Position numbers and translations under genes: made by a program
Part shown: positions 50,368-64,000 of the stretch, piece after piece
How the letters are laid out: the number at the start of each line of letters is the position of its first letter
Position numbering within the stretch: position 1 is the first letter of the stretch
Origin: Allomyces macrogynus ATCC 38327
Taxonomy: Eukaryota; Blastocladiomycota; Blastocladiomycetes; Blastocladiales; Blastocladiaceae
Assembly (NCBI GenBank): GCA_000151295.1
Contig: GG745331.1
Location: 554,211-618,210, forward strand
Direction: 5' to 3'
DNA: 64,000 nucleotides
Notes under the pieces: generated by a model
What the model was told of the DNA's origin: nothing
The model's database searches: none
Seen by the model: the letters and a program-made list of their open reading frames with translations, nothing else

Positions 50368-51124
50368 CTCGCTCAAGCCAGCCGGCGGCCGCGCGTCCAT
50401 CCGTCCGTCCGTCCGTCGTGGTCGCTCAAGGTACCGCGCCCATTTTCCCTCCCTTCGCTGACCACACTCGCGTTGGACTTGGCGCACTAACGGCACGCCA
50501 CTCGACGCCGGGGTTCGACTTGGTCGCGGTGTTCCACGGGCTCGATTCGCCAACCAGCTTCTCCTTGTCGGCGCGCCGGTCCATGGCGATGGCCGCGTGC
50601 TGCAGTGGTGCGTCTCTGACGGCACGCGGTCTCGTTTGGCGTCGGCCGGGCCCGGCCCGCCACCAGTGCGGTTGGCGGGAGAGGAAGAGCCGTCGATGGA
50701 GCGATGCGGGCCGCGGTCGGCGCGGCGGCCGTCGCGAGGTGAGCAGTCTTCTTTTCTGTTTTCATTTTCCTGTTTTGCGTTTCTCGTTGAAGAGAATTGG
50801 TTGCTCCTTGCTCGTTTCGTTCTGCGAAAGCTGCACACTGCGAGTGGAACCGCGTGTCGTCGAGACGCGTCGCCCGATCACTCGTCCGATCTCTTCCCAC
50901 GGTCCGGCACCCAGACACGAGCACCACAAGCACCACCATCCGCACCACACGCACCACCATCTGCACCATCAGCACGCAAGCGCCCGATATTGCGTGCCGT
51001 GTGTGGCCCCGGAACGGCCATCGCCAACTGCCTCGAGCGCAAGCACCAACCACTACGCGCACCCTCCACCCACCCACGTCGGCACCCGCCGCCCGCTATC
51101 CACGCGACCAGTTCGCACGCGACC
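50368..51124. other. Intergenic, about 0.76 kb
   Basis: Between two forward genes. A short CCGT microsatellite (about 50399-50417) and a CACCA-rich stretch (about 50925-50970) are visible. Open frames cross it into the next gene without motifs. Nothing else seen. Confidence 0.45.
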
Positions 51125-52569
51125 ATGGACGCCGAACTCACGCTGCGGTGCAACCTGCTCGCGTGCCGGCGCGCGTTACCCACGGTCGGCGTCGACGCGC
51201 GCGCCGTCGTCACGACCTGCTCGCACCTGTTTTGTGAGGACTGTGCCGCGCGCTTCTTTGCGTCGGCGCTCGTGTGCCCTTCGTGCGAGTCGCCGCTGCC
51301 GGGCCCGTACGCTCCGCTGGCGCCGCTGCTGAATTGCATCGCGCGCCTGGCCGTGGCCGACCGACCGGCCGACGTCCCATCGTGTAGGGACGACATTGCG
51401 CTCGCCGACCTGAACCCTTCGGAAAACTACAAGGCGGTGCGTACCAACGCGGCCATGGCCTTGATCTCGACCGCTATCCGATCACCCACAGACACGTCGA
51501 CGTACGCTCGAAATCCCAGTCGGTTCTCGCGGGACTACCGCCGTCGGTCGTGCACGAAATTGCCGGCCGTGCGCTCAGCTTTTGGGTCTACCAGGTCACG
51601 CAAGAGTGCGTGCTGCTCGACATGATGCACAAGCGGGTATGCGTGCAGTTTCTTGATGTTCAACTGCTCACGTTTATGCTCTGACCCGACTCGAATTCGC
51701 AAACGAGCAGAGTGAGGCCGCGGCCAAGGACGCCGACACGCAGGCGCGCGTTTCGCTGCACCAAGCGGCACAGGAGCTGGCCGGTACGTACTCGCTGAAT
51801 GGCCATTCCGCCGTCACGAGCTCTGACTCTTCCACGCGGCCACTAAATAGCGTTGCGCGACCGCGTGCGCCTCCTCGAAGAAGACCGCGAGTGCGACCGC
51901 AAGCGTGCGCACAATCTCGGCGACCAGCTCGCCGACAAGACGCGGCAACTGCACCGCATGCACGCCGTGCTCGACAAGCACAAGCGCCGCGCGCTACTGC
52001 ACGCTGCGAGCCAGCCAACGCCGCCGACCGCCGCCGTTCCCGTGCGGATCGGGTCGCAGGGCGCCGTCGGTCTGCAAAGTGTGGCCCCTCCACCACCGCC
52101 AATGCCGGTGGCGGGCCCGCCGTGTGCGTCGATGGCTCCGGTCGGTAGCGGCCGCCGCGCGTTCACAGCAACCCCGCGACCCGCATCGACGCAGGCACCG
52201 TGGACCGCGCGCGCGGCGCCACCTCCACCTCCACCAGTGACGATCCCGCAAGCTGCTGGTGGTCCGGCGGGAAGGTGGATGCCGCACGCGCACCACCACC
52301 ATCATCACGCGATGTCGGGGTGGGGAAGCGGCAGCGGCGGCGGCGGCAGCGGGCACCACGATCCACCCACCGCGTCGCCCGTGATCAGCGGTGCGTCCCC
52401 CGCCCGGGCCGGGGCCAGCGCGGCCAGCATGAACGGTGCGTGGCAGCATGAACGGTGCGGCTCCGGTGCGGACGAACGCGGCGCGGGCCGTGGGGCGCAG
52501 TGGAGGGGCGGTGGGAACGGCGGGCGGCGGGTGAGGGGAGCCGGCGGAGTGCGCCATCGGATCATGTAA
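51125..52569 (+). CDS. HEI10/CCNB1IP1-like RING protein (meiotic crossover E3 ligase)
   Basis: Exons 51125-51436, 51520-51636, 51711-51783 and 51851-52569 with introns of 83, 74 and 67 nt close to 1221 nt (406 aa). An atypical N-terminal RING (LRCNLLACRRAL, VVTTCSHLFCEDC, CPSCESPLPGPY) is followed by the family-specific ADLNPSENYKASVLAGLPPS and IAGRALSFWVYQVTQE. These align well with vertebrate CCNB1IP1 (HEI10). A coiled coil (ALRDRVRLLEEDRECDRKR and onward) and a Pro/His/Gly-rich disordered tail with a His6 run complete it. HEI10 proteins act as SUMO or ubiquitin ligases that accumulate at crossover sites in meiosis. The alignment across the exon 1-2 junction supports the splicing. Confidence 0.85.
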
Positions 52570-53439
52570 ATAAGGCGCGCGGGCTTTTGAAGGTTTCTCA
52601 GGTCCGGTTCGGTCATGAATTCGTGTTGGGTTTAGCAAAGTTTGGCGCGGCAACGGTGAAATGCTTGTGAACGAGGGACGGGGGTGTGCAAGGATCGGGC
52701 AGGGCCGGAATGCGTGCTTGTGGGGCCATTTGAGTTGATCGAGCGGCAGAAAGGAGCGGCCGATGGAGCGCCGCGCGCGCGTCGCTTGTTGAGCCCGCGC
52801 GTGAGGGGAACTGGAGGGATCAGGCGGCGGCGTCGTGCGGGTTCTCGGCCTCTGGTGGAGAAGGATGTGGTTAGTTGACATTTTTGTAGTCAACACATGA
52901 CCTGTGACGGATGGTCTTGGACGCGTCGTGGCCATCGTTGATGTGCATTGCAAAGATGCAAACGCTCCTTGTATCGCTTGCCCGCCGCGGCTGGGGAGGT
53001 AACGGCCAGTGCTGATGATACGGTGCAATGGACCCCACCTCCCCCTGTTGTCGGCGTTAGGTCTGAGCGGCTCAGTCGTGGGGAGATGTGGTGGCAGCCC
53101 TGGTGATCAGCGCGCAATCAAACGCTGGCCCTGCAACGACGAACGCGCGCACATGGCCGGGGACATATTCAGAGTGTCGGAATGCCCAACCTAAAACGCG
53201 TCTGTCAACAGTGACTTATTTTACAGCCAAGGGCGTAGTGGGAGCCGTTTGTAATGTACTACTGTATTGTGGCAGGATTGTATTCACGCCATCCTGGCAA
53301 CGGCAAACGATAGCGAGCTATGGAAAAGTGAGAGAAATATCGCTGCACCCGAAGGCTGCTGACCAATGTTATTGCACGAGGACGCGTTCAAGGAATCGCT
53401 TCAGGTAGTGATTGCAGGCAATTCTCTTCTGTATAATAA
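52570..53439. other. Intergenic, about 0.87 kb, host side of the element boundary
   Basis: No frame with a domain. GC content falls to the right of about 53.2 kb as the viral element is approached. I could not identify a terminal repeat or target-site duplication, because the other end of the element lies outside the window. Confidence 0.45.
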
Positions 53440-53441
53440 TA

Positions 53442-53467
53442 TGCCGCGGACCTCAAGGTCCGCGGCA
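53442..53467. repeat. Perfect 12-bp palindrome with 2-nt loop at the left flank of the element
   Basis: TGCCGCGGACCT is followed by CA and its exact reverse complement AGGTCCGCGGCA. It is the leftmost element-like structure seen and may be a terminal hairpin, a resolution site or a protein-binding palindrome. Confidence 0.75.
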
Positions 53468-53474
53468 CATGTGC

Positions 53475-53756
53475 CCTAGGACCCTGCCCTAGGTCCAACC
53501 CTAGGTCAAAATGCTGTCCTAGGTCCAAGCCGCTCCAGGACCACCACCTCGATGAACCCCCACCGCGACCACTTCGATTAATGGTTCTCGACATGCCCCT
53601 GTAAGCCTGAGGACCTGGACTGGAATTCTGGGACCTAGGTCCACGCCGGTCGGGGAATGGAATTCGGGGATGTGTACCGCGAGCAAGTCTGAGAAAGGGT
53701 GCTGGGGATGGGTGGACTGGGAATTGCGACCTAGGAATGTGTGTCTGGGACCTAGG
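53475..53756. repeat. Array of seven CCTAGG sites
   Basis: CCTAGG, mostly extended as CCTAGGTCC, occurs at 53475, 53488, 53500, 53518, 53634, 53730 and 53751. The block GGGACCTAGGTCCACGC occurs twice (about 53630 and 53747). The same hexamer returns as a pair in the promoter gap at 57607-57632. The clustering, with recurrence in the element, suggests a binding site for an element-encoded protein. Confidence 0.7.
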
Positions 53757-53826
53757 TCCACGCGCGGGCAGCGCAGCTGCCCTTGGGGCCAGGGGGTTCG
53801 GCGAATGGTTCGGGATGGGTTGGGGT

Positions 53827-53995
53827 ACGTTATACGAATCCAATAACATAATGCGAATTCCTGGGGGACGTTATGCGAATTTGGTTGCATAATGCGAATT
53901 TCTGAAAAACATTATGCAAATTTCAGGGTGCTCTTTGTGAATTTCCGGTCCGGAATGGCTCGATATGTGAATATCAGGGAGGCATTATGTAAATG
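53827..53995. repeat. Iteron-like array of ATGCGAAT motifs
   Basis: The core TGCGAAT or a one-base variant starts at 53833, 53852, 53874, 53893 and 53915, with weaker copies near 53966 and 53987. Spacing alternates 19 and 22 bp, about two helical turns, so all sites face the same side of the DNA. Flanks alternate ACGTTATGCGAATT and CATAATGCGAATT. Phased iterons beside a helicase gene are a common layout of replication origins. The function is inferred. Confidence 0.7.
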
Positions 53996-54038
53996 TCATG
54001 GTCAGGGGTGGGTCGGAAAAGGTCTCTCCAAGTGGTCA

Positions 54039-54408
54039 CCCCAATTGTTCCTAAAAATGTGCTGTGAGGACTCTCAAAACCGTGGACACGACCTTGGAAA
54101 TGGCACTGGAATGCATCTCAATTGGCCTCCCAGGCATGTTTTTTGAGTGTCCACGCTGTCCACGGTTTTTGGGGGTATTTTGATAGGGTCCAGAAAAAAG
54201 GAGAAGGAGAGGTATATCCCTTGCGATACAACCCTTCCTCCTTTTTTTCTGGACCGATTTAAAACACCCCCAAAACCGTGGACAGCGTGGACACTCAAGA
54301 AAAAGAGAATAGGTCTGGGAGGCAAATTGCCATTTTATTGAATTGTCTGTCACTCAAAATCGTGGCCATTTCAAGCCATCTCACGGCCAGTTTTAGGAAC
54401 AATCGGGG
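54039..54408. repeat. Large imperfect inverted repeat, about 370 bp
   Basis: The left arm (from CCCCAATTGTTCCTAAAA) and the right arm (ending TTTTAGGAACAATCGGGG) pair over about 170 bp each. The best-conserved inner part is GTGTCCACGCTGTCCACGG, then TTTTTGGGGGT and GGGTCCAGAAAAAAGGAG, against its complement. The loop lies around 54205-54235. The structure ends 9 nt from the stop codon of the helicase gene, so it could be a terminator, a replication or packaging hairpin, or an inserted palindromic repeat. Confidence 0.85.
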
Positions 54409-54416
54409 TAAGCAAC

Positions 54417-56729
54417 TCACTCCTCACCATCCGAAAGGTCCATGGCCCCTGGGCCCAGGTACACCCACATGACCTCACGATGACCATTCACCCGAACCCG
54501 TTGCTTCATAAACAGCCGCGCATCACCACCTCGCTGAAGGTCAATGGCATCCCGTAGATGCACACCAAAGGCGGTCATCGAAATGACATGGTGCCCTGGG
54601 AAGCGCTTCTGGACAAACTTCTGGTAGGTCTCATAGAGCTCCGTGCTTGACATGCTCTGTTCTACCTCCACCTCGCGGTTCTGCTCCATGAGGTTCCACG
54701 GGAAACCACCATACTCGGTGATTTCCTGGAACAGCGCGGAGATAGGGTCAGCAGACGCCTCCACAATGGCATCACGGTCCTCATTCCGTGGGAAGTTGGC
54801 CAAGTCAATGTCGCTGAGGTCCACGTTGCAAAGGTACGTGAAAATCTTGTCGGCATTGGCCTTGACATACTCATCCAGATGGCGGAAGTACACGCGGTCG
54901 CAGCGGCGCTTGTTTGACACGTTCAGCACAAACACATGGCGGCCGGACTTGGTGAGAGGCAAGATGTTCTTGTTGTTCGACGCAATCATAAAGTTGTTGA
55001 CGTTCTTGACCTCGTAGCGACGAACGCACTTTTCGTTGATGATGGTCCGTGTGTCCGTGACCATGTTCTTGAGCCTGTCAAACGCAGCCATCCGCTCACG
55101 ACCATTGGACACTGGCATCTCGTCGAACAGCACCAGTGACTTGTTCTCAATCTTGGAGTTGAATGACCCGGCCAAGAACTGAGCGGCATTGTTGAGCGGC
55201 ACACACAGCTTCTTGCCCAGCATGTACGTGGAAATTGACTCAAAGAGGAATCCCTTGCCTGCACCCTCGAGGCCAGTCAAAGCCAGTACCACACCATTCG
55301 CCGTGCCACTGGTGAAGAGCTCCTGCAGCCACTTGAGGACAAACTTGTACTCTGTCTCACGACCACTGCAAATGACTTCGAGAATGTAGTCCAAGTACAT
55401 GGACACCTCGTCCCGTGGAATCGTCTGCTTCAGGTTCGTGGCTGCAAACCCAGGAAACGCGTTGAAGTAGTCAATGTACTTCTTGCCCGAGCAAGGCCCC
55501 CACTGTGGCTTGTAGAAATCGAAGATGCGCTTCTTGACGATGGGCGCAAAGTCCTGGCCAATCGACGCCACCATGTCCACAGTGCCGTGCGAAACGTTCA
55601 GGCCCCAATCATCATCGACACATGCCCGGAAATAGTACATGCCGACAGTCAGGTCCTTGCGTAGGAACTCGCCAACATATGTGGACACGACCTGCTCCCA
55701 CGAATCAGCATCATCGGCCTCCTTGCAGCGCTTCATGTGGTTAAGCACCTTGCGCACCCACTCCTCATCATAGTGCATGTTCTCTTCAAGCTTGGCCTTG
55801 ACAAACTTGTCGACATTTTCACAGCTCTCTGGGAAATCGCGCTTTTCGAGGTTTGCATCTTTCTTGAGTTCCTTTTCCGCCCATTTGATGTCGAACCCAG
55901 TCCGTTGGACTGTGTACTGGTGAAGCTCCTCCAGCAGCTCCTCGTTGACCTTGTCGTCCTTGACCACCATCAAACCGTCAAAGCACAGCACACTGGGGAC
56001 GAGGTCACGTGCACAGAAGAACTCGACCGCCTCCATCAAAACGAGACTCTTGACCGCCTGGAAGACATTCGACATAAAGGAGCCCTTGTTGATGGTCGTC
56101 ATGGTCCGTGTCTTTGAGGCTTGCATGATGTTGGGGTAATTGGCGGACAGTCGTGGATACACAACCGTGTAAAGCACGTGGTGCATCTCCATGAGCTCAG
56201 GGTGGAGGGTGGTGTACAGGTGCTCGCTGAACATGATAGCGAGGAAGTCCGACTTTTCCTTGAGCTTGTACTTGGCCAGTGCCTGCTGGCGGTCCTCCAG
56301 GTACGTGTCCAACGCCTTGCTCTGGAGGTCATAGTGGGCCAGGATGCCCTTGAAGATGGAAGGAGCAGCAGCCACCATGTCGATATCCTGGAGCACCCCA
56401 GCTGCGAGGGCACCACGGGAATCCTTCTTCAGCGATTGCAGGGACACACTGGTCGCGTAAAGACGCCCAAACTCCTTGTTGCCCCGACGGTCCTTTGGGA
56501 AACAATACACCGTCTCCTTGCCTTCCCCATAAGTCGATTGGAGAAGGGTCAAATAGGCCCGGAGCTTTTTCTTGAGGTCCTGGTGAACGCCCGAGTGCTT
56601 CTTGGAGAGGTCCTTGAGCACTTCCATGTTGACAAACTCGCAGAGGACAATGCGGCGGGTGTCATCGAATGGAGCCTTGTCAAGACGGTCCATGAATGCC
56701 TTGAGCTGGGTCGACGTGGTGTTCTCCAT
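54417..56729 (-). CDS. Superfamily 3 helicase with possible polymerase-like N-terminal domain (element replication protein)
   Basis: 770 aa, intronless, starting at the ATG at 56729. The C-terminal half (about residues 430-640) is a superfamily 3 helicase: Walker A GLEGAGKGFLFE, Walker B KSLVLFDEMPV, motif C NNFMIASNN, then arginine-containing TKSGRHVFVLNVSNKRR. The N-terminal half contains GSFMSNVFQAVKSLVLMEAV and VLCFDGLMVV, reminiscent of motifs B and C of TV-Pol, the family A-like polymerase of transposons and viruses that is often fused to such helicases. I rate the helicase as sure and the polymerase as plausible. It would unwind, and perhaps copy, the element DNA. It diverges from the Cys-rich gene at 56860. 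No frame break was found. Confidence 0.88.
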   Translation of the reverse strand: MENTTSTQLKAFMDRLDKAPFDDTRRIVLCEFVNMEVLKDLSKKHSGVHQDLKKKLRAYLTLLQSTYGEGKETVYCFPKDRRGNKEFGRLYATSVSLQSLKKDSRGALAAGVLQDIDMVAAAPSIFKGILAHYDLQSKALDTYLEDRQQALAKYKLKEKSDFLAIMFSEHLYTTLHPELMEMHHVLYTVVYPRLSANYPNIMQASKTRTMTTINKGSFMSNVFQAVKSLVLMEAVEFFCARDLVPSVLCFDGLMVVKDDKVNEELLEELHQYTVQRTGFDIKWAEKELKKDANLEKRDFPESCENVDKFVKAKLEENMHYDEEWVRKVLNHMKRCKEADDADSWEQVVSTYVGEFLRKDLTVGMYYFRACVDDDWGLNVSHGTVDMVASIGQDFAPIVKKRIFDFYKPQWGPCSGKKYIDYFNAFPGFAATNLKQTIPRDEVSMYLDYILEVICSGRETEYKFVLKWLQELFTSGTANGVVLALTGLEGAGKGFLFESISTYMLGKKLCVPLNNAAQFLAGSFNSKIENKSLVLFDEMPVSNGRERMAAFDRLKNMVTDTRTIINEKCVRRYEVKNVNNFMIASNNKNILPLTKSGRHVFVLNVSNKRRCDRVYFRHLDEYVKANADKIFTYLCNVDLSDIDLANFPRNEDRDAIVEASADPISALFQEITEYGGFPWNLMEQNREVEVEQSMSSTELYETYQKFVQKRFPGHHVISMTAFGVHLRDAIDLQRGGDARLFMKQRVRVNGHREVMWVYLGPGAMDLSDGEE

Positions 56730-56859
56730 TGTTTCTTATATTTTGCTGAGGAAAAAAAAAGGAGGAATAACGCTCGCTTAAATGCGTTTGAACGCATCGA
56801 TAATCCAGCCGCTTTGCAAATTAAGTCCTGGAATTCACAAATTGGTACGAATTAGAGAA
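56730..56859. promoter_or_regulatory. Divergent promoter between the helicase and Cys-rich genes
   Basis: A 130-bp gap between two divergent starts holds an AT-rich core (TTTCTTATATTTTGC at about 56732) and an A9 run at about 56752-56760. It contains the upstream ATG at 56782, which is in frame with the Cys-rich gene, so the exact start of that gene is open. Confidence 0.5.
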
Positions 56860-57588
56860 ATGAACGACATCTACCTTGCAGACCACGACAAACCCGACAT
56901 TTGCTACTGGTGTGCTGTCCCTGGAGACCAACAGCCGCTCAAATCACCTAATCGGCTCGTTAGACGGCTGTCTGCCTTGTTGAATATGCCTGTCGAAAAG
57001 GTTGAGCTGAAAATAAAGCTCGGGACCTTGCTGCAAGGTTTCAAACGCACTTCACACCGTGTAGCACCTGATGGTAGTTTTCTGACGTGTCTGTGTGGAG
57101 TCCATGTCCAAGAGTTGTGGATTGTCGAAAACAGCACGGTGCGAATTGGCATTGGGACAAAGTGCATTGAACGGATTGACGAGGCCATGAGTGAAGAAGT
57201 CCAGAAATTAATCAGAGAACGTAACCGGAAGACATTTGACTGTGTGCCCTGTGGGAAGCGCCACCCAAAAACACAGGGATGTCCACTCGACAAGAAGCCT
57301 GTCCAGATTCAAACACGAACCCCGAGTCCACCGCCAGCCTACTCTCTAATGCCTCCAGTGAAAACGTGTGTCAAATGCTCAAAACCAAATTCGACCAAGT
57401 ACACCACATGTCAGCCATGCATGCAAAAAGCAAAGCATTGCGCGACAAAAGGATGCTCCAAGCTAGTGTTTAAGGAGGGTCACCAGATTTGCTATCACTG
57501 CCACATTCAGGCGTCAGGTCCCACAAAACAGTGTCGCTGTGGCAAAATCATCAAGGCGACCTACAACACTTGCTTCCTTTGTAAGTAA
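56860..57588 (+). CDS. Cys-rich zinc-binding protein of the element
   Basis: 242 aa from the ATG at 56860 (an in-frame ATG at 56782 would add 26 residues of unlikely sequence). The N-terminal half carries CYWC and TCLCGVHV motifs. The C-terminal third has several CxxC pairs: CVPCGKRHPKTQGC, CVKCSKPNSTKYTTCQPC, CATKGCSKLV, CYHCH and CRCGKIIKATYNTCFLC. These should bind three or four zinc ions as ribbons. A Pro-rich linker (RTPSPPPAYSLMPP) separates the halves. No exact family is recognised. A transcription factor or nucleic-acid-binding protein of the element is a reasonable guess. It is followed after 57 nt by the recombinase-like gene. Confidence 0.7.
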   Translation: MNDIYLADHDKPDICYWCAVPGDQQPLKSPNRLVRRLSALLNMPVEKVELKIKLGTLLQGFKRTSHRVAPDGSFLTCLCGVHVQELWIVENSTVRIGIGTKCIERIDEAMSEEVQKLIRERNRKTFDCVPCGKRHPKTQGCPLDKKPVQIQTRTPSPPPAYSLMPPVKTCVKCSKPNSTKYTTCQPCMQKAKHCATKGCSKLVFKEGHQICYHCHIQASGPTKQCRCGKIIKATYNTCFLCK

Positions 57589-57645
57589 TTCTCAAACGCG
57601 TTTGGACCTAGGATTATTTTTCTTGTCCTAGGATAAACAAAAAAC
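57589..57645 (+). promoter_or_regulatory. Short promoter-like gap with paired CCTAGG and T-rich motif
   Basis: Within 57 bp, CCTAGG occurs at 57607-57612 and 57627-57632, flanking ATTATTTTTCTTGT, and the ATG follows 14 nt later after an A-rich stretch. T-rich tracts with CTTGT or CTCGT are also found before the capsid gene and after the small charged protein gene. Confidence 0.5.
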
Positions 57646-58794
57646 ATGGAACAAATTCTTCAGCAGCTTCTCGAGGGTCAGGCTGTCATGCTAAACCGCA
57701 TTGCCCAGCTTGAACGTGGTGTTACAGTCATGACACAATTCGTCGAACGATTCCAGACAGCCATGGGTGTGAAAGTCGAGGAACCACTTGAGGAACCACT
57801 CGAGGACCAGCCTGAGGAGGTCATCGAGCTGCCTGTTGCCGATTCGGAATCAGAGATTGTGATTCAGGAACACGAGCCACTCAAGGAATTTGTGTTTGAA
57901 CTGCTCCTCAAGGAGTACATCCATGATGCCAACGACAAACCGTGCGAAAAAGCCACAAAGAAGCGCCGCAAAAATTTGCTGACGTGGTTCAAGGGCAATG
58001 TGTCGCAGATGAAAGGAAGTGAGGGGCTCGACATTGTCGCCGAATGGTCACGACTATTCGACCTGATGAATGTGCGTCAGCTCAAGGACACGGCCACTGC
58101 CTTGAACAGCATCAAGCTCTCTGGAAAGCATTTCTCGAACGTGGACATTGAGGACCTCCACCACCAGTGCCATGAACGGCGCAAAACCAAGGACAAGATG
58201 ACCAGTGTGCTCAACGCAAAGAAGCCCCTGGTGGTGTCCCTCGACCAATGCAAAGCCTATGCAGCAACCGTCCCTGTCCAGCCATTGCCAGACGGCCTCC
58301 TGGCCATTTTCATTTCAGCTGCTGTGGGCCTGCAGTGTGACCCAGTGTACCTGACATGTGCCAAGACCGATGACTACCCCTACCTTGAAGTCGAGGGTGA
58401 GCACCTCTGGATGCGTGGTCCGATTATGAGCGCAAAGGCCAAGGACAAGGGGTACAGCATCAATGTGCTCATCGACCCAGCATTCGCCAGCTACATTGCC
58501 GCCAGCGTCCAGGAGCGGGCCAAAACGGGTCAGAAATTCGTTTTCGCCGATTTGGTGGACGAGGACAAGGACAAGAGCTTTGACTGCTATTCAAGACTCA
58601 TCCGCACGGCATCCCAGAGCATTCCGGAGCTGAACGGCACGAGTACTGTCGATTTTCGCAAGGCTCACGTGACCCACGACCTGGGCCTGTACAAGCGCAA
58701 TGCCATGACCTACGACGAGCTCAACGCCTGGTTCTCTGCACGTGGGCACAGTCTGGCCGTGCTGGACCATTACTACCGCCTGGACGTGGAATAG
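57646..58794 (+). CDS. Divergent tyrosine-recombinase-like protein with N-terminal coiled coil
   Basis: 382 aa. A coiled-coil start (MEQILQQLLEGQAVMLNRIA) and an acidic segment precede a helical region (about 85-200) and an alpha/beta C-terminal domain. The last 60 residues resemble the catalytic end of tyrosine recombinases: VDFRKAHVTHDLGL in place of HxLRHTxATxLL, ARGHSLAVLDHYYR in place of LGHSxxxTxxxY. The expected first arginine appears as Gln (VGLQCDPVYLTC) and the first histidine as Val. The enzyme may therefore be inactive, or only the fold is shared. It sits 22 nt upstream of the DDE integrase, so the element carries two recombinase-like genes side by side. The assignment rests on motifs only and needs structure-based confirmation. 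Confidence 0.45.
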   Translation: MEQILQQLLEGQAVMLNRIAQLERGVTVMTQFVERFQTAMGVKVEEPLEEPLEDQPEEVIELPVADSESEIVIQEHEPLKEFVFELLLKEYIHDANDKPCEKATKKRRKNLLTWFKGNVSQMKGSEGLDIVAEWSRLFDLMNVRQLKDTATALNSIKLSGKHFSNVDIEDLHHQCHERRKTKDKMTSVLNAKKPLVVSLDQCKAYAATVPVQPLPDGLLAIFISAAVGLQCDPVYLTCAKTDDYPYLEVEGEHLWMRGPIMSAKAKDKGYSINVLIDPAFASYIAASVQERAKTGQKFVFADLVDEDKDKSFDCYSRLIRTASQSIPELNGTSTVDFRKAHVTHDLGLYKRNAMTYDELNAWFSARGHSLAVLDHYYRLDVE

Positions 58795-58816
58795 ATTTTG
58801 TTGAGTACTTGTAAAG

Positions 58817-60057
58817 ATGGCCAAGAAGCAGTCCAAGGAACAAGACCATAGCAACGACCCAAATCGCCAGCTGCTGAGTGGACCCCAGGAGCTATTCTTG
58901 AAACGGTTGTATTATGAACGGTTTCCAGGCGCAGGTTACCATGCTCTGTACGAGGCAGTCGTGCGTGAGGCACCATCGACCCTCCCCCACATTTACCGCA
59001 ACCAGGTTCGGGAATGGCTGAACACACAGGAGCTGTACCAGCGCAACAAGCAGCCCCCTCCCAAGCGCGACATTCAGCGCATCCAGGCCACCTCTGTTTC
59101 GCGCATCTACCAGCTGGACCTCATCGACATGGGCGAAGAGCGTATGTGGAAGGGCTTTCACTATATTTTGAACGTGGTGGACGTGGCCAGTCGCAAGCTG
59201 TTCCTGGAGCCACTCAAGAAAAAGACACAGGACACAGTGTACCTCGCATTCAAGAAAATCGCCAAGCATGAGCACTTTGGCAACAAGCCGACCATCCACA
59301 TGGACAATGGCGGTGAATTCGCTGCGTTGAAACGCGACCCGAGCATTCGATGTGTGCTGGGCAAGCCCCACGTACCCATGGGCCAGGGCATGGTCGAGTC
59401 GCTGAAAAACAGGTGCGGTGTTATGTCAACATGTACCTGCAGCAAGGCTACAATGACTGGCCCATGGCTATCCCTCGCTTCCAGGACTCGTTGAACTCTT
59501 TGTCGCGGAGAGGCACTGGCGGTCTGTCGGCCAATGAGGCTCACGAGATGCCCAAGGAAGAGTCCAAGGTGTATTTCGAGGAACTGAAAGCAAAACGAAC
59601 GTGCAGCGACAACCCGCTCAATGACAATTTGCTGCCACTTGGTGCCACTGTGCGCTACCGATTGCCATACAAGAGTCAGCTGGAGAAAAAGAACATGCCC
59701 ACGTACAGTGCCACGGTGCATACCATTGTTCAGCATCGAAAAGGCATGGGCATCAGCAGTCCTTCGTATAAAATTTCAGACATGCCTCACTGGTACAATG
59801 CCAGCGATTTGCAGGTCATCAAAAAGGTCGAGGTGTATGAACGCGAGAAGCAGCCAGTGGTGCAGCGCGTCAAGAACACTTCGAACGTGGTCATGGTCCC
59901 GGCCAAGCAGGTCCTGAGGCGCTCAGAGCGTCTTCGCAACAAGCAGGCGCCAGAAGCCGCGCCAGTGGTTGCTCCAGAGCCCGCCCCAGAGCCAGAAGAA
60001 GAAGAGCCATTTGTGCCACGTCACTCAGAGCGTATTCGCAACAGGTCAGCACAATAG
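58817..60057 (+). pseudogene. DDE (rve) integrase of the element, with an apparent one-base frame break
   Basis: The reading frame starts at 58817. The N-terminal helical part is followed by an rve core with all three acidic residues: YQLDLIDMG, IHMDNGGEF and, 35-40 residues later, MGQGMVESL. Just after the Glu motif, at the A5 run 59405-59409, this frame runs into unrelated sequence. A frame shifted by -1 continues with integrase-like sequence to 60057 (CYVNMYLQQGYNDWPMAIPR onward). The tail has two copies of a basic motif (RRSERLRNKQA, RHSERIRNRSA) around an acidic Pro-rich linker. Total length would be about 413 residues. The shift could be a lesion, a missed homopolymer base or, less likely, programmed frameshifting. 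Mavericks and virophage-like elements use such integrases to insert into host DNA. Confidence 0.8.
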
Positions 60058-60647
60058 GTAGAGACTCAGGGTAACGTGGACGCCAACTGCTGACAGATTG
60101 ACGTTGCTCATCCAGTTGAAGCAGTAGGTGTGGGTCGAGTCAAGATACACTGGGGCCGATGCACTCATCCACATATTGCCAGACTTGACGCTCTGGGCAG
60201 AGACCAGGGTGAGTGAACCGGGGAAATTCCCTGCTGTGCTGCTCGTGTAATCGTAGAGATATACAGTGGCAGTGTGTTCAGCAGACGGATTGCTCAAGTA
60301 CCAGCACAATGTGTTTGCCATGTACCATCCGCTCGTTGACACGGTGAAACACCCGCCAGTGCCAGATGCATTAACCGCACCTGCAGGAACCGAGCTGTTG
60401 ACGAGGGCTGTTTGCATGTTTGCGCCAGCGAGTTTGACAAATGAGGTGGCTGTGAATGCAATGGGCGCCGAAGAGTTGAACATAATCTGGCCGTAGCGAA
60501 CGGTTGGAAGCATGCTCGCCTGCACCTGCCCCCATGTCGCCGCATGGTTATTTGCTGTACATTGGCAATTGCTGTGGCCAATTCGGCGTCCGTGGCATAC
60601 GAGCTGTCGTCCGCAATCAGTCCAAATACGTTCAGTGGAGTGTTCAT
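60046..60647 (-). pseudogene. Beta-rich, fibre-like protein with an apparent one-base frame break
   Basis: Begins at the ATG at 60647 (MNTPLNVFGLIADDSSYATD). At the T3 run 60551-60553 (AAA on the coding strand) the frame must change to continue into TWGQVQASMLPTVRYGQIMF and the rest, ending at 60046. The C-terminal 130 residues are a string of beta strands rich in Ser, Thr, Tyr and Val (GCFTVSTSGWYMANTLCWYL, TATVYLYDYTSS, VYLDSTHTYCFNW). The GWY and Y-x-F spacing recalls C1q/TNF-like trimeric jelly rolls found in viral fibre heads. That assignment is tentative. It converges on the integrase gene with a 12-nt tail overlap and diverges from the next gene. A receptor-binding or minor virion protein is the best guess. 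Confidence 0.5.
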
Positions 60648-60679
60648 GTGGATTATTATATTCTAGACACAAAATTAAA
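60648..60679. promoter_or_regulatory. Compact 32-bp divergent promoter
   Basis: Only 32 bp separate two divergent ATGs. The gap is AT-rich (TGGATTATTATATTCTAGAC), with a TATA-like core readable on both strands. It implies very short untranslated leaders. Confidence 0.5.
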
Positions 60680-60958
60680 ATGAACAGCTTCGAAGAACAG
60701 TTTGAGACGCTGGACAAGGTCGGTGAGTACCTTGGTCTGCCCAAAGCCTTCTACGACCTCGACGATGGGGCCAAGGAGGCCTACATTGACCGCTACATGA
60801 AGGAGAAGCAAAAGAAGCTGCGCCAGTACTGGTTCGTCAAGGACACCACAGACCAGGACTGTGCCTCTGCAGTCTGTGACCGAATGCGTCTCAAACTAAA
60901 GAAACGTGAGTTGGAGCGGGAAAAAGCCCAGCTGAACATGCTCCTTGGACTTTCGTGA
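60680..60958 (+). CDS. Small charged helical protein, 92 aa
   Basis: Starts at the ATG at 60680, directly after the divergent promoter. The product (MNSFEEQFETLDKVGEYLGL at the start, KKRELEREKAQLNMLLGLS at the end) is Lys/Glu-rich and predicted helical, possibly a short coiled coil. It has two cysteines (QDCASAVC). No family is recognised. Its position between the fibre-like gene and the large structural gene suggests a virion or assembly role, but this is inference. Confidence 0.6.
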   Translation: MNSFEEQFETLDKVGEYLGLPKAFYDLDDGAKEAYIDRYMKEKQKKLRQYWFVKDTTDQDCASAVCDRMRLKLKKRELEREKAQLNMLLGLS

Positions 60959-60997
60959 ATTTTATTTCTCGTTCTTAGTTAAACATTTCATCCAAAC

Positions 60998-62626
60998 ATG
61001 GGCCGCCCTAAGGGTTCTAAACAGGGCGACACTGAAGGCCGCAGGGCAATTATCAGAAAAATCTTTGCAGAAAACAGTGATGTCATTGAGCATTACGGAA
61101 AAGGTGGTTTTCAAATTCGTGGGACAGAACGACACAGGGATTATAAATCAACAACCTGGGCTCTGCGTGACCTGATGAGGTTCTTCCAGTCAATCAAGCG
61201 CTCCAGGCCACTTCAGAGTGATGAAGACATGAAAACGCTCAACAGGTTAATGAAAGAATCTAACGAAATCAAACACCGGGGAAAAGCCGAGTTCATCAAA
61301 GATTCAGAAATCAACAGGGACAACATGGATGTGGACAACAATGCAGATGACAACCGTCAGCAACAGTACATTGAAATTTCTTCAAGCGATGAGGATGACG
61401 AACCAGACGATGCAAACCCCAATGCAGGTGAGCAATACCCCCCTCCTGATGACATGCGGGTGACGCGTGGACGTGCACAGCCTGACATTGACATGGATGA
61501 GCCCCATGACGATATGCAAATGGTGCCCGCTGGCCGCTCTCTCCCTCCCGTTGTTGCTCCAGGTGGGCAAATGGTACCTGTTGACCCCTCTCTCCCTCCC
61601 ATCCTTGCTCGCCAAATGGCAGAGGAACCGCCCACTGCTCTTGTGCCTGTGCCGGACGATTATGAGCGAGCAGTATCAACCGCACAAAACAACAACAGCG
61701 TTGCTGGCCCAGTGGGTGCACATTGGAATCCGGCAGTGGGTGGTAACCACCAGGCTGTCATGCTTGCACAGCAGAACAACACGCTCAACCAGCAGAACAT
61801 CCAGAACAACCTCACTCAGAACAACCTCACTCAGAACACACTCAACCAGCAAAACATCCAAAATATCCAAAACATCATCCAGACATATCCGGGCATCGAA
61901 CCGGCACTCGCCACACTGTTCCAGGGCATCCAGGCCACATTCCTCAATGTCAGTGAGCGCAACGATGCACTCCTGCAAGCCCTGAGTGGCCTGGAGATGG
62001 AGCTCAAGGCAGAGGGCGGGAACACTGCCCAGCTGGCAAGCCAGTATGTCCAAGAGCAACTCGAGCGTTTCGCAATTGACATGTCAATTCAAAACGCTGA
62101 AAACAATGCCGAGATTAAGGACAACAAGGCGCGAATCAACAAGATTGGTCTCATTACAGAAGCACTTGCGGACAGTCAGTATGCAATGCAGGAAACGCTT
62201 GAGCAAGTCCCTGAACAGCTGTCAACCCTCCCTGGTCGTGTCATTGACGCCCTCAACCGGTCAGTCAACAACCCCATCAACAAGCTCTCAGGCATCCTTG
62301 AACAGGCGCAGAACACAGCCCAAGCTATCGGTGACAATGGTGGGAGCCGGGGCGGTGAAGGAGATGGTGGACCAGGGCTCCAGGAGCAGAAGATGATGAA
62401 CGACACGCTCAAGCAAATTGCCAGCACACTCAACAAGACCCCTCGCATGCCATGGGACGACAAGCCGCAGACAGTCGACAACTACTTTGCCACTGTGCCC
62501 CACTTCCACAAGAACCCATGTGCGCCTTACACCGTTCCACAAAACGTGGGGGCGCGTGTCATCAAACCCTATGGACCAAAGGTCTACTACGTCCCACAAG
62601 GCTTTGGCGGCGTCCAGGACAAATAA
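60998..62626 (+). CDS. Large partly disordered element protein with AT-hook-like start and SUMO-interacting motif
   Basis: 542 aa from the ATG at 60998. The first residues (MGRPKGSKQG) form an AT-hook-like GRPKG motif. A small basic domain follows (about 10-100). Residues near 125-138 read YIEISSSDEDDEPDD, a textbook SUMO-interacting motif (hydrophobic core plus Ser/acid run). A Pro-rich segment has two similar units (PAGRSLPPVVAPGGQMVP, then PVDPSLPPILARQM). Asn/Gln repeats (NNLTQNNLTQNTLNQQNIQN) follow. A long helical, coiled-coil-like region (about 290-430) and a Gly-rich linker lead to a conserved-looking C-terminus (YGPKVYYVPQGFGG). The family is not recognised. The position just upstream of the ATPase and capsid genes suggests a virion or DNA-associated protein. 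Confidence 0.65.
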   Translation: MGRPKGSKQGDTEGRRAIIRKIFAENSDVIEHYGKGGFQIRGTERHRDYKSTTWALRDLMRFFQSIKRSRPLQSDEDMKTLNRLMKESNEIKHRGKAEFIKDSEINRDNMDVDNNADDNRQQQYIEISSSDEDDEPDDANPNAGEQYPPPDDMRVTRGRAQPDIDMDEPHDDMQMVPAGRSLPPVVAPGGQMVPVDPSLPPILARQMAEEPPTALVPVPDDYERAVSTAQNNNSVAGPVGAHWNPAVGGNHQAVMLAQQNNTLNQQNIQNNLTQNNLTQNTLNQQNIQNIQNIIQTYPGIEPALATLFQGIQATFLNVSERNDALLQALSGLEMELKAEGGNTAQLASQYVQEQLERFAIDMSIQNAENNAEIKDNKARINKIGLITEALADSQYAMQETLEQVPEQLSTLPGRVIDALNRSVNNPINKLSGILEQAQNTAQAIGDNGGSRGGEGDGGPGLQEQKMMNDTLKQIASTLNKTPRMPWDDKPQTVDNYFATVPHFHKNPCAPYTVPQNVGARVIKPYGPKVYYVPQGFGGVQDK

Positions 62627-62647
62627 TTTTCAGCATAAAGTATAACC

Positions 62648-63436
62648 ATGTTCACTGTGAAAGCACTTGACAACCAGGCCCATCGAGGGGGTCCCTATCT
62701 GGTCCCCAAGATACCAGCCACTGTGACTTTGCTAGGGCCCAAAGCAGCAGGGAAATCAACAGTCGCATTGAACATGATTTTGTCGCCACAGTGTTGGCGG
62801 CACTGTTTCTCTAAAATTTACGTCTTTTCGCCCACCTCACACCTTGACCCAAAGTGGCAGCAGCTTACTGAGACGCCTGTCCTCAAACACGACCCGAAAG
62901 CCCCCTACAACCCAGAGCTGCTCGCCGTGTCACGCAACTGCTTCATTCACAAGGTGGACGAAATGGAGGCCAAATTAAAGGAAATCGCCATGCTCCAAGA
63001 CCCCGAGAAGCGCGACTTCACCAAGCACCCTGGAAAAATTGACAACATGCTCATTGTGCTGGACGACATTGCAGGCACAAAATTTGCCCGCTCACGCTTC
63101 CTGGACAGCTTCATTGCACTGTCACGCCATCGACACATTTCCATGATTATCTCAGTGCAGCTTTTCAAAGCCATCACCCCCCTGGCTCAAAACAACATGT
63201 CATATTACATGCTATTCGAGACTTACAACAGAAGCGAACTGCGAACCATCTATGAAGCAATTGGGGGTTCCTTTACATGGGAAGAGTTCATTGGAGTGTG
63301 CAACCAAATTTTCGAGAAACCGCATGCCACATTCAACTTCAACATGCAGAACACAGGTCTCAGGTATTGTTACATCAATTCATTCCACTCCTTTATCATG
63401 CGAAAACAGCATCTGGATGAGGATGAGTACTCGTAA
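62648..63436 (+). CDS. A32-type genome-packaging ATPase (FtsK/HerA superfamily)
   Basis: 262 aa, start ATG 62648, 21 nt after the previous gene. Walker A is GPKAAGKST (about residues 30-38) and Walker B is NMLIVLDDIAG (about 136-146). A sensor region SRHRHISMIISVQ follows, as in A32-like ATPases of Polinton-like viruses, virophages and large DNA viruses, which pump DNA into the capsid. The length fits the family. It lies 35 nt upstream of the probable capsid gene, the typical morphogenesis-module order. No lesion is seen. Confidence 0.9.
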   Translation: MFTVKALDNQAHRGGPYLVPKIPATVTLLGPKAAGKSTVALNMILSPQCWRHCFSKIYVFSPTSHLDPKWQQLTETPVLKHDPKAPYNPELLAVSRNCFIHKVDEMEAKLKEIAMLQDPEKRDFTKHPGKIDNMLIVLDDIAGTKFARSRFLDSFIALSRHRHISMIISVQLFKAITPLAQNNMSYYMLFETYNRSELRTIYEAIGGSFTWEEFIGVCNQIFEKPHATFNFNMQNTGLRYCYINSFHSFIMRKQHLDEDEYS

Positions 63437-63471
63437 TTTTTTTTCTTGTGTCTTTTCTAAACCCCCTCAAC
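63437..63471 (+). promoter_or_regulatory. T-rich gap before the capsid gene
   Basis: The 35-nt gap starts AATTTTTTTTCTTGTG and continues TCTTTTC before the ATG. It resembles the T-rich TTTTTCTTGT stretch before the recombinase-like gene and may be a late-promoter or termination element. Confidence 0.45.
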
Positions 63472-64000
63472 ATGACTTCACCCGTGACTAACTTTGCCAA
63501 TGTCCTCCCGACATCACTCGGCAAGGAGATGATTTACACTCCGCCCAAGCAGGCGCCAGTTGCTGACCACACGACCATCAAATTCCCGTGCACACAGGGT
63601 TCTGCATTCTCTGCATCTGGCAATGGTCTTGGTTCGACCATCCGCTTCCAGATTCCGGCTGTGAACAAAATCGTGGACCTCTCAGCGGGTGTGCATTTTT
63701 CGTTCAAGGCCTCGACGTACAAGGATGCAGCATGCACTCAGCCCACGACCACTGGTGCCCCAGAGACGTACTTTTCAGAAGGTATCCACTCATGCGTGCA
63801 ACGACTGCATTTGCTCACGTCCAGTGACCAGTTGCTTGAAGACATTGATGGCTACGGGTTGTTGACCCGCATGCTCAGTGACGCGACGGTCCCTGCGGCG
63901 CTCAAGAGCACGGTACTGTCAATTGTCCAGGGGTACGGTGACCCTGTGCACCGCTCGGGGGGCCAACCGCCAGTTCATTTTCCCGCTCCACTCGGCTCTC
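63472..64000 (+). CDS. Probable major capsid protein (N-terminal part; runs off the window)
   Basis: Starts at the ATG at 63472 (MTSPVTNFANVLPTSLGKEM). The visible 176 residues read as an N-terminal arm followed by beta strands (IRFQIPAVNKIVDLSAGVHF, SCVQRLHLLTSSDQLLEDID, YGLLTRMLSD). This is the layout at the start of double-jelly-roll capsid proteins of Polinton-like viruses and virophages, in which phrases such as xIxRxxLxxxxxxLEDIxxY recur. Near the right edge, after a G6 run at 63957-63962, the protein-like sequence continues in another frame (ANRQFIFPLHSAL), so a one-base discrepancy is likely there. Position directly after the A32 ATPase supports the assignment. The C-terminal domain and any minor capsid gene are outside the window. 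Confidence 0.72.
   Translation, partial: MTSPVTNFANVLPTSLGKEMIYTPPKQAPVADHTTIKFPCTQGSAFSASGNGLGSTIRFQIPAVNKIVDLSAGVHFSFKASTYKDAACTQPTTTGAPETYFSEGIHSCVQRLHLLTSSDQLLEDIDGYGLLTRMLSDATVPAALKSTVLSIVQGYGDPVHRSGGQPPVHFPAPLGS

Follow-up and report, generated by a model that had tools for sequence, protein, structure and literature searches.

A decayed Polinton-like virus with palindromic ends and two recombinase genes in the genome of Allomyces macrogynus

The right end of a 64,000-nucleotide stretch of the Allomyces macrogynus ATCC 38327 genome (hereafter the window; C72:554211-618210, on a 1.99-Mb contig of a 54.0-Mb assembly whose contigs are given C-numbers) raises the question of whether a virus has become integrated in a zoosporic fungus and, if so, how it enters and leaves its host genome. 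An initial annotation, made from the sequence alone, had proposed that a block starting at 53440 is an integrated Polinton-like virus (PLV). This proposal stands: a capsid module, terminal inverted repeats (TIRs), a perfect 5-bp target-site duplication and cellular open reading frames (ORFs) on either side make it virtually certain that the block is an endogenous PLV of A. macrogynus. Overall, the locus is best explained as a decayed copy of a PLV family that has repeatedly colonised this fungus, in which an rve-type integrase integrates the element and a tyrosine recombinase (YR) recombines the palindromes at its ends (probability roughly 0.6).

The window truncates the element. By comparison with sister copies, its ends were fixed at window position 53442 and at L021:3295, where L021 is the ten kb directly to the right of the window, which completes the element; the right end (C72:621505) therefore lies 3,295 bp outside the window, and the whole element spans 13,854 bp (C72:607652-621505). 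The block start given in the annotation was 2 bp off, and the rightward extension that it advised revealed both the terminal repeat and the target-site duplication (Table 1). The block was also correctly described as compact, as lower in GC (0.524 in 53442-64000 vs 0.616 in window 1-52900) and as flanked by host genes: a RING-finger ORF of cellular type lies on the left (50696-51622, best E-value 1.9e-6), and weaker, cellular-looking Myb/HTH matches, under the Pfam cut-off, lie on the right (L021:4631-5224; 2.3e-4 and 4.9e-4). A wider TIR, pairing window 52981-54421 with L021, was dropped, as the sister copies place the ends at 53442 and L021:3295. An 84%-identical inverted repeat (window 52981-53200 and L021:3314-3556) lies outside the duplication and has no other match in the genome; it may be a fold-back element that predates the virus and served as its insertion site. 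Within the left TIR, two 41-bp tandem units, 78% identical to each other, occupy window 53821-53902, in a stretch that did not align to the right TIR.

Across the genome, perfect 5-bp duplications were found at nine of the ten loci with both ends (C55 is without one) and, as they are all different, they represent separate insertions. A chimeric join at the ends of the window copy is very unlikely, because these ends carry a duplication, as do nine of ten end pairs, each with different letters. Assembly chimera or contamination, against which the annotation had also argued, can be given negligible odds: nothing was found in its favour, and the end duplications, the cellular ORFs on both sides and relatives in A. 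arbusculus and A. javanicus all speak against it. It could also be argued that the genes are the remnant of a giant virus (nucleocytoplasmic large DNA virus, NCLDV), since the accessible text of a 2017 survey lists A. macrogynus for a D5 primase-helicase assigned to that group (PMC5294986). However, the elements measure 13.9-22.4 kb, bear TIRs and 5-bp duplications and have the gene set of a small virus, and the exact ends argue against that origin at this locus, which leaves it highly improbable; the D5 helicase of the survey may itself belong to these PLVs. An A32/FtsK packaging ATPase, and TIRs with a short target-site duplication, are features of PLVs that the element has. The 6-bp duplication of Maverick/Polinton elements sensu stricto was not found, nine of ten end pairs having 5 bp.

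We then turned to the gene content (Table 1), in which the helicase, DDE integrase and A32 ATPase named in the annotation were each recovered by domain matches. For the probable capsid, the support comes from structure: sequence searches with the capsid and the YR in Pfam, NCBIfam and the PDB yielded nothing useful, the capsid having no Pfam match and no meaningful PDB sequence match (the best with a profile, at 0.0011, was an unrelated TraT protein). The structural model of a homologue, P0003, which is 42% identical to a sister capsid, matched double-jelly-roll coat or scaffold proteins in 50 of the 50 matches listed, at a predicted local distance difference test (pLDDT) score of only 51.3. 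Behind the major capsid protein (MCP) gene, a conserved 259-aa ORF is a candidate minor capsid (penton) gene, with Pfam DUF5901 (1.4e-7) as its sole match. The N-terminal half of the helicase presumably resembles the polymerase domain of virophage and PLV helicases, and the fibre gene of the window copy is missing roughly 1.5 kb relative to the sister copy on C48. No protein-primed DNA polymerase B (pPolB) was present among the Pfam and PHROGs matches of ten window ORFs, the ORFs of L021 having been inspected by eye only. No protease was seen among the Pfam matches, and the capsid is too diverged in sequence for a virophage-type assignment. Scans of viral contigs with the sister capsid, P0003, the ATPase and the alignments numbered A2 and A6, together with one phage scan, found no relative. 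The annotation had overlooked the YR gene, the fibre remnant, the exact ends with their duplication, the fact that this copy is decayed, and the 25 other loci with capsid sequence.

Table 1. Features of the window copy (window positions; L021 positions count from the window end).
Feature	Position	Strand	Remarks
Left target-site duplication, TAATA	53437..53441	.	right copy L021:3296-3300, perfect 5 bp
Left terminal 26-bp palindrome, TG...CA	53442..53467	+	can form an 11-bp hairpin; identical palindrome at right end, L021:3270-3295
Left TIR	53442..54421	+	right copy L021:2530-3295; two main blocks 93% and 95% identical, indels between
SF3 helicase / primase-like replication protein, 770 aa	54417..56729	-	Pfam DUF5906 4.8e-18; solved primase 6k9e 1.1e-15
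Cysteine-rich protein, 268 aa	56782..57588	+	zinc-ribbon-like by eye; present in most A1 sister copies
YR, 382 aa	57646..58794	+	model matches Cre, Xer, topoisomerase IB, protelomerases
rve (DDE) integrase	58817..60057	+	frame broken (58817-59494 and 59350-60057); rve 4.4e-8; uninterrupted at some other loci
Fibre-like protein, C-terminal remnant	60046..60513	-	open frame of at least 579 aa in sister C48
Short ORF	60512..60958	+	C-terminal two thirds kept in sister copies
Q/N-rich protein, 542 aa	60998..62626	+	conserved at the same place in sister copies
A32/FtsK-type genome-packaging ATPase	62648..63436	+	Pox_A32 1e-7; Walker A and B motifs by eye
Capsid gene	63472..64000, continuing into L021 in another frame	+	frame broken near the window end

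Matches to the capsid fall into 26 loci (counted from 36 match rows), 16 of which have a frame that runs almost from end to end without interruption; the ATPase, YR, integrase and helicase gave 36, 28, 32 and 38 rows, which do not equal loci, as one locus can give several. At least three capsid lineages can be distinguished by identity to the query: A1 (89-100%, uninterrupted loci), A2 (68-69%) and a diverged set (27-32%), with one intermediate locus on C65 (51%). In a protein search, the sister capsid matched proteins of A. arbusculus (94%) and A. macrogynus ATCC 38327 (AMAG_17996, 82%), and a probably metagenomic protein (42%); the annotated AMAG_17996 bears residues diagnostic of the window copy, which identifies A. 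macrogynus as the host. A search with the YR retrieved four A. macrogynus proteins and one from A. javanicus (best 8,000 candidates scored). Four loci, at C56:120-128 kb, C58:61-69 kb, C41:186-198 kb and C65:860-868 kb, form a second PLV lineage with capsids of 27-30% identity, an rve gene and no detected YR; the helicase at C41:186-198 kb is 70% like that of the window copy, which implies exchange of modules across lineages. At C60:633-643 kb (L033) the element is rearranged, with integrase and YR genes after the penton gene and in inverted orientation.

There is strong support for a spread of copies during which selection acted on their proteins and modules were exchanged between lineages. 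Selection during the spread is indicated because the ratio of nonsynonymous to synonymous divergence (dN/dS) is low in all A1 pairs, both for the capsid (0.10-0.30 in 28 of 28 pairs, dS up to 0.43) and for the YR (0.08-0.20 in 15 of 15). The integrase values within A1 (0.22-0.63) were discarded as inflated by broken copies, the penton values of 0.86 come from pairs with a dS of only 0.012, and the ATPase of the window copy against that of C61a has a dN/dS of 0.46 at a dS of 0.045. Moreover, modules recombine, because divergence clashes between genes of the same pair: C48 and C42 differ by a dS of 0.035 in the capsid and 0.57 in the ATPase, the window copy and C61a by 0.045 in the ATPase and 0.37 in the penton gene, and the helicase of C48 is only 59% identical to that of the window copy, whereas that of C74, whose capsid is 98% identical, reaches 97%. 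Two A2 elements have a dS of 1.1-1.5 in three genes, but only 0.235 in the YR and 0.67 in the penton gene.

The window copy itself is decayed, with an integrase split in two frames, a broken capsid frame, a truncated fibre gene and a YR without the predicted active-site arginine kept by some other copies, while other loci retain uninterrupted genes. Among 384 single-copy changes in three gene alignments, C-to-T or G-to-A changes affect 6.3% of CpG positions (171 changes) vs 0.76% of other C/G positions (86), a rate about 8-fold higher. In addition, the two parts of the element have CpG observed/expected ratios of 0.75 and 0.71, vs 1.27 in the host part of the window, where the lowest 5-kb block has 1.02. 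This pattern suggests cytosine methylation of inserted copies, or a process in Allomyces resembling repeat-induced point mutation.

Attention was next given to the ends. Those of the two main lineages are palindromes of 25-27 bp, TG...CA, sometimes imperfect, that comprise the first bases from the flank inward. The sequence just inside the A1 end occurs in 25 exact copies and at 31 places with at most one mismatch (with at most two, 40 places against 18 for a reversed control, not split by mismatch). A search with the palindrome skeleton found 23 places (control 1), 22 being ends beside a TIR and one a chance match, and the 27-bp form found six (control 0), of which five are ends. For covariation, 22 of 30 A1-like stretches (the 26-bp form) were aligned, leaving out seven of other length and L072, which is without a palindrome. 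Stem pairing was seen in 92.8% of cells vs 81.2 (standard deviation 1.7) in shuffles, cells changed on both sides numbered 20 vs 7.1 (1.9), and stem covariation was 0.315 vs 0.113 in shuffles and at most 0.106 when the stem was slid. The loops occur in two orientations, TCAA and TTGA, and in the C58 element one end has TTTGA and the other TCAAA. In nine of ten elements the two ends have identical or nearly identical stems; between several elements the stems vary, with one stem common to C48, C58 and C74. Five ends folded alone reach -9.5 to -15.9 kcal/mol, and the A2 palindrome, which is fully symmetrical, is identical at six of six element ends, while two A2 elements are, as given above, far diverged in three of their genes. 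The terminal palindrome is in all likelihood functional. Against a covarying stem stand several points: two of the five covariation measures (pairs changed on both sides, and further pair types) did not exceed the shuffles; one stem pair is unpaired in 7 of the 19 distinct rows, possibly through CpG decay; and relatedness alone can exceed shuffles of the kind used.

Searching the genome with the A2 palindrome at up to three mismatches gave ten places (control 0), namely six element ends and four lone copies at C38:328006, C44:473240, C27:139127 and C26:56441. Each lone 26-bp palindrome is directly flanked by a perfect 5-bp duplication (CGACG, GAGCT, CTGAC and AATGC, respectively), and no TIR was seen in the roughly 55-65 bases on either side. 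No lone A1 palindrome is among the 27 found by pattern, although a form that fits neither of the two patterns, like the 25-bp one of C41, would escape. Lone palindromes accompany A2 (4/7 loci) and not A1 (0/20, a round number under the 22 counted; Fisher p 0.002), and they are probably excision scars.

The elements carry two recombinase genes side by side: of the 25 integrase loci, counted without two rows of E above 1e-4, 19 have a YR match directly adjacent to the rve gene. Integrase loci without an adjacent YR match number six (C65 twice, C56, C41:190 kb, C58:61 kb and C66), and four YR loci gave no integrase row (C59:661 kb, C22:259 kb, C75:153 kb and C75:41 kb), absence here meaning below the reach of the search, or masked letters. 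Further diverged loci at C73:2052-2060 kb and C40:134-136 kb have YR and rve adjoining, so that the pairing may predate the separation of A1 and A2. A YR fold can be accepted with qualification: in the model (pLDDT 52.6), 45 of the first 48 match rows are tyrosine recombinase-type by title, and the protelomerases TelA and TelK are among the matches. Tyrosine recombinases use the catalytic set R-K-HxxR-H-Y; in the YR sequence alignment, a candidate R (some copies), K, R, GH and Y line up, while the H of HxxR was not seen.

How could these parts work together? Integration by rve is highly probable, because the duplication and the TG...CA ends are what an rve integrase leaves; the enzyme would insert linear viral DNA with a 5-bp stagger. 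A YR does not produce such target-site duplications, according to the accessible text of PMC12220804, and the conserved second recombinase therefore needs another job. The palindrome, two mirror-image arms with a 4-5-nt centre, may be the site of the element's own YR, since mirrored arms around a short centre suit binding by a YR dimer. Recombination of the two ends by the YR would excise the element with one palindrome remaining between the duplications, which is exactly the scar observed. An action of the YR on the palindrome, be it for excision or for resolution, has about even odds. Inserted copies would become methylated at CpG and then decay. The fullest version, in which entry is by a retroviral-type integrase, exit is by the YR through the terminal palindromes with a 26-bp hairpin scar left behind, and the same palindrome forms the hairpin end of the replicating viral DNA, is put forward tentatively.

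Other explanations of the palindromes have to be weighed against recombination by the YR. The palindrome may instead be a replication end, either a self-priming hairpin like those of parvoviruses, or a hairpin telomere, opened by the YR or another nuclease. Loops in both orientations, covarying stems shared by the two ends of an element, stable folding of single ends, the protelomerases among the YR-model matches and the lack of a pPolB match among the proteins tested all favour such a role, and copying through a hairpin explains loop flipping and stem upkeep better than a YR site does; hairpin replication alone is nonetheless somewhat unlikely. For the lone palindromes, a route without any YR would be slippage in the host, or single-strand annealing, once the TIRs have brought the two 26-bp copies together; this would be comparable to the nearly precise excision of bacterial transposons. 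The palindrome is a direct repeat of itself, the TIRs can pair, and the full symmetry of the A2 palindrome would favour exact pairing of the ends; yet A1 has similar repeats at more loci and no lone palindrome, and all four scars are exact, so that this route is unlikely. Finally, the lone palindromes might be tiny insertions by rve of a free 26-bp palindromic end fragment, at sites that never held an element. Their TG...CA ends and 5-bp duplications are the same as in full elements, but a free 26-bp duplex would be required, and this origin appears improbable. Recombination by the YR thus remains our preferred source of the scars.

To our knowledge, very little is known of double-stranded DNA viruses in fungi. 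A family of several lineages in a classic laboratory fungus, with so many capsid frames uninterrupted, offers a tractable host for finding out whether PLVs of fungi are still live. The pairing of recombinases and the palindromic ends bear on how PLVs that have no protein-primed polymerase complete their termini and exit the host, and on why some elements retain two integrases. Moreover, the decay pattern points to cytosine methylation as a fungal control of PLVs, and caution is advised in taking every D5-like helicase in A. macrogynus as a trace of a giant virus.

The presence of PLVs in A. macrogynus is already known, as Bellas and Sommaruga 2021 (PMC7805220) name its MCP, ATPase and helicase genes as integrated PLVs; the accessible text also reports other integrated relatives with TIRs, three of them with 5-7-bp duplications. 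For A. macrogynus, that text describes neither the ends nor the copy number nor a pair of integrases, and words in palindrom- or hairpin are absent from its main text. Fungi were outside the genome set of Bellas 2023, as far as its accessible text goes (PMC10120064). The mid-GC endogenous mavirus-like elements (EMALEs) of Cafeteria (PMC8547959) share a YR plus rve, a long primase/helicase ORF without pPolB, and short duplications; however, they are virophages of a marine flagellate, and no palindromic ends are described in the text available. Cryptophyte PLVs (PMC12220804) are likewise endogenous, with rve or YR, TIRs and duplications of about 4-6 bp, but palindrom- and hairpin are absent from the main text, and among its 8,300 mainly cryptophyte elements the accessible text has the rve and YR pair only where rve is fused to a reverse transcriptase (retrotransposons). 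Among the open-licence papers listed for polintons or virophages of Allomyces, other Blastocladiomycota or chytrids, and for palindromes and hairpins of polintons or virophages, we found no report of palindromic PLV ends, and within that literature the palindromic ends, the scars and the dual recombinases appear to be new. The closest resemblance in the ends themselves is to the terminal palindromes of parvoviruses and to the telomere sites of protelomerases such as TelA and TelK, which are short palindromes with flip and flop forms, served in the case of protelomerases by an enzyme of YR fold. Those belong to other virus groups, and to such ends the Allomyces PLVs add a separate rve integrase and 5-bp target-site duplications.

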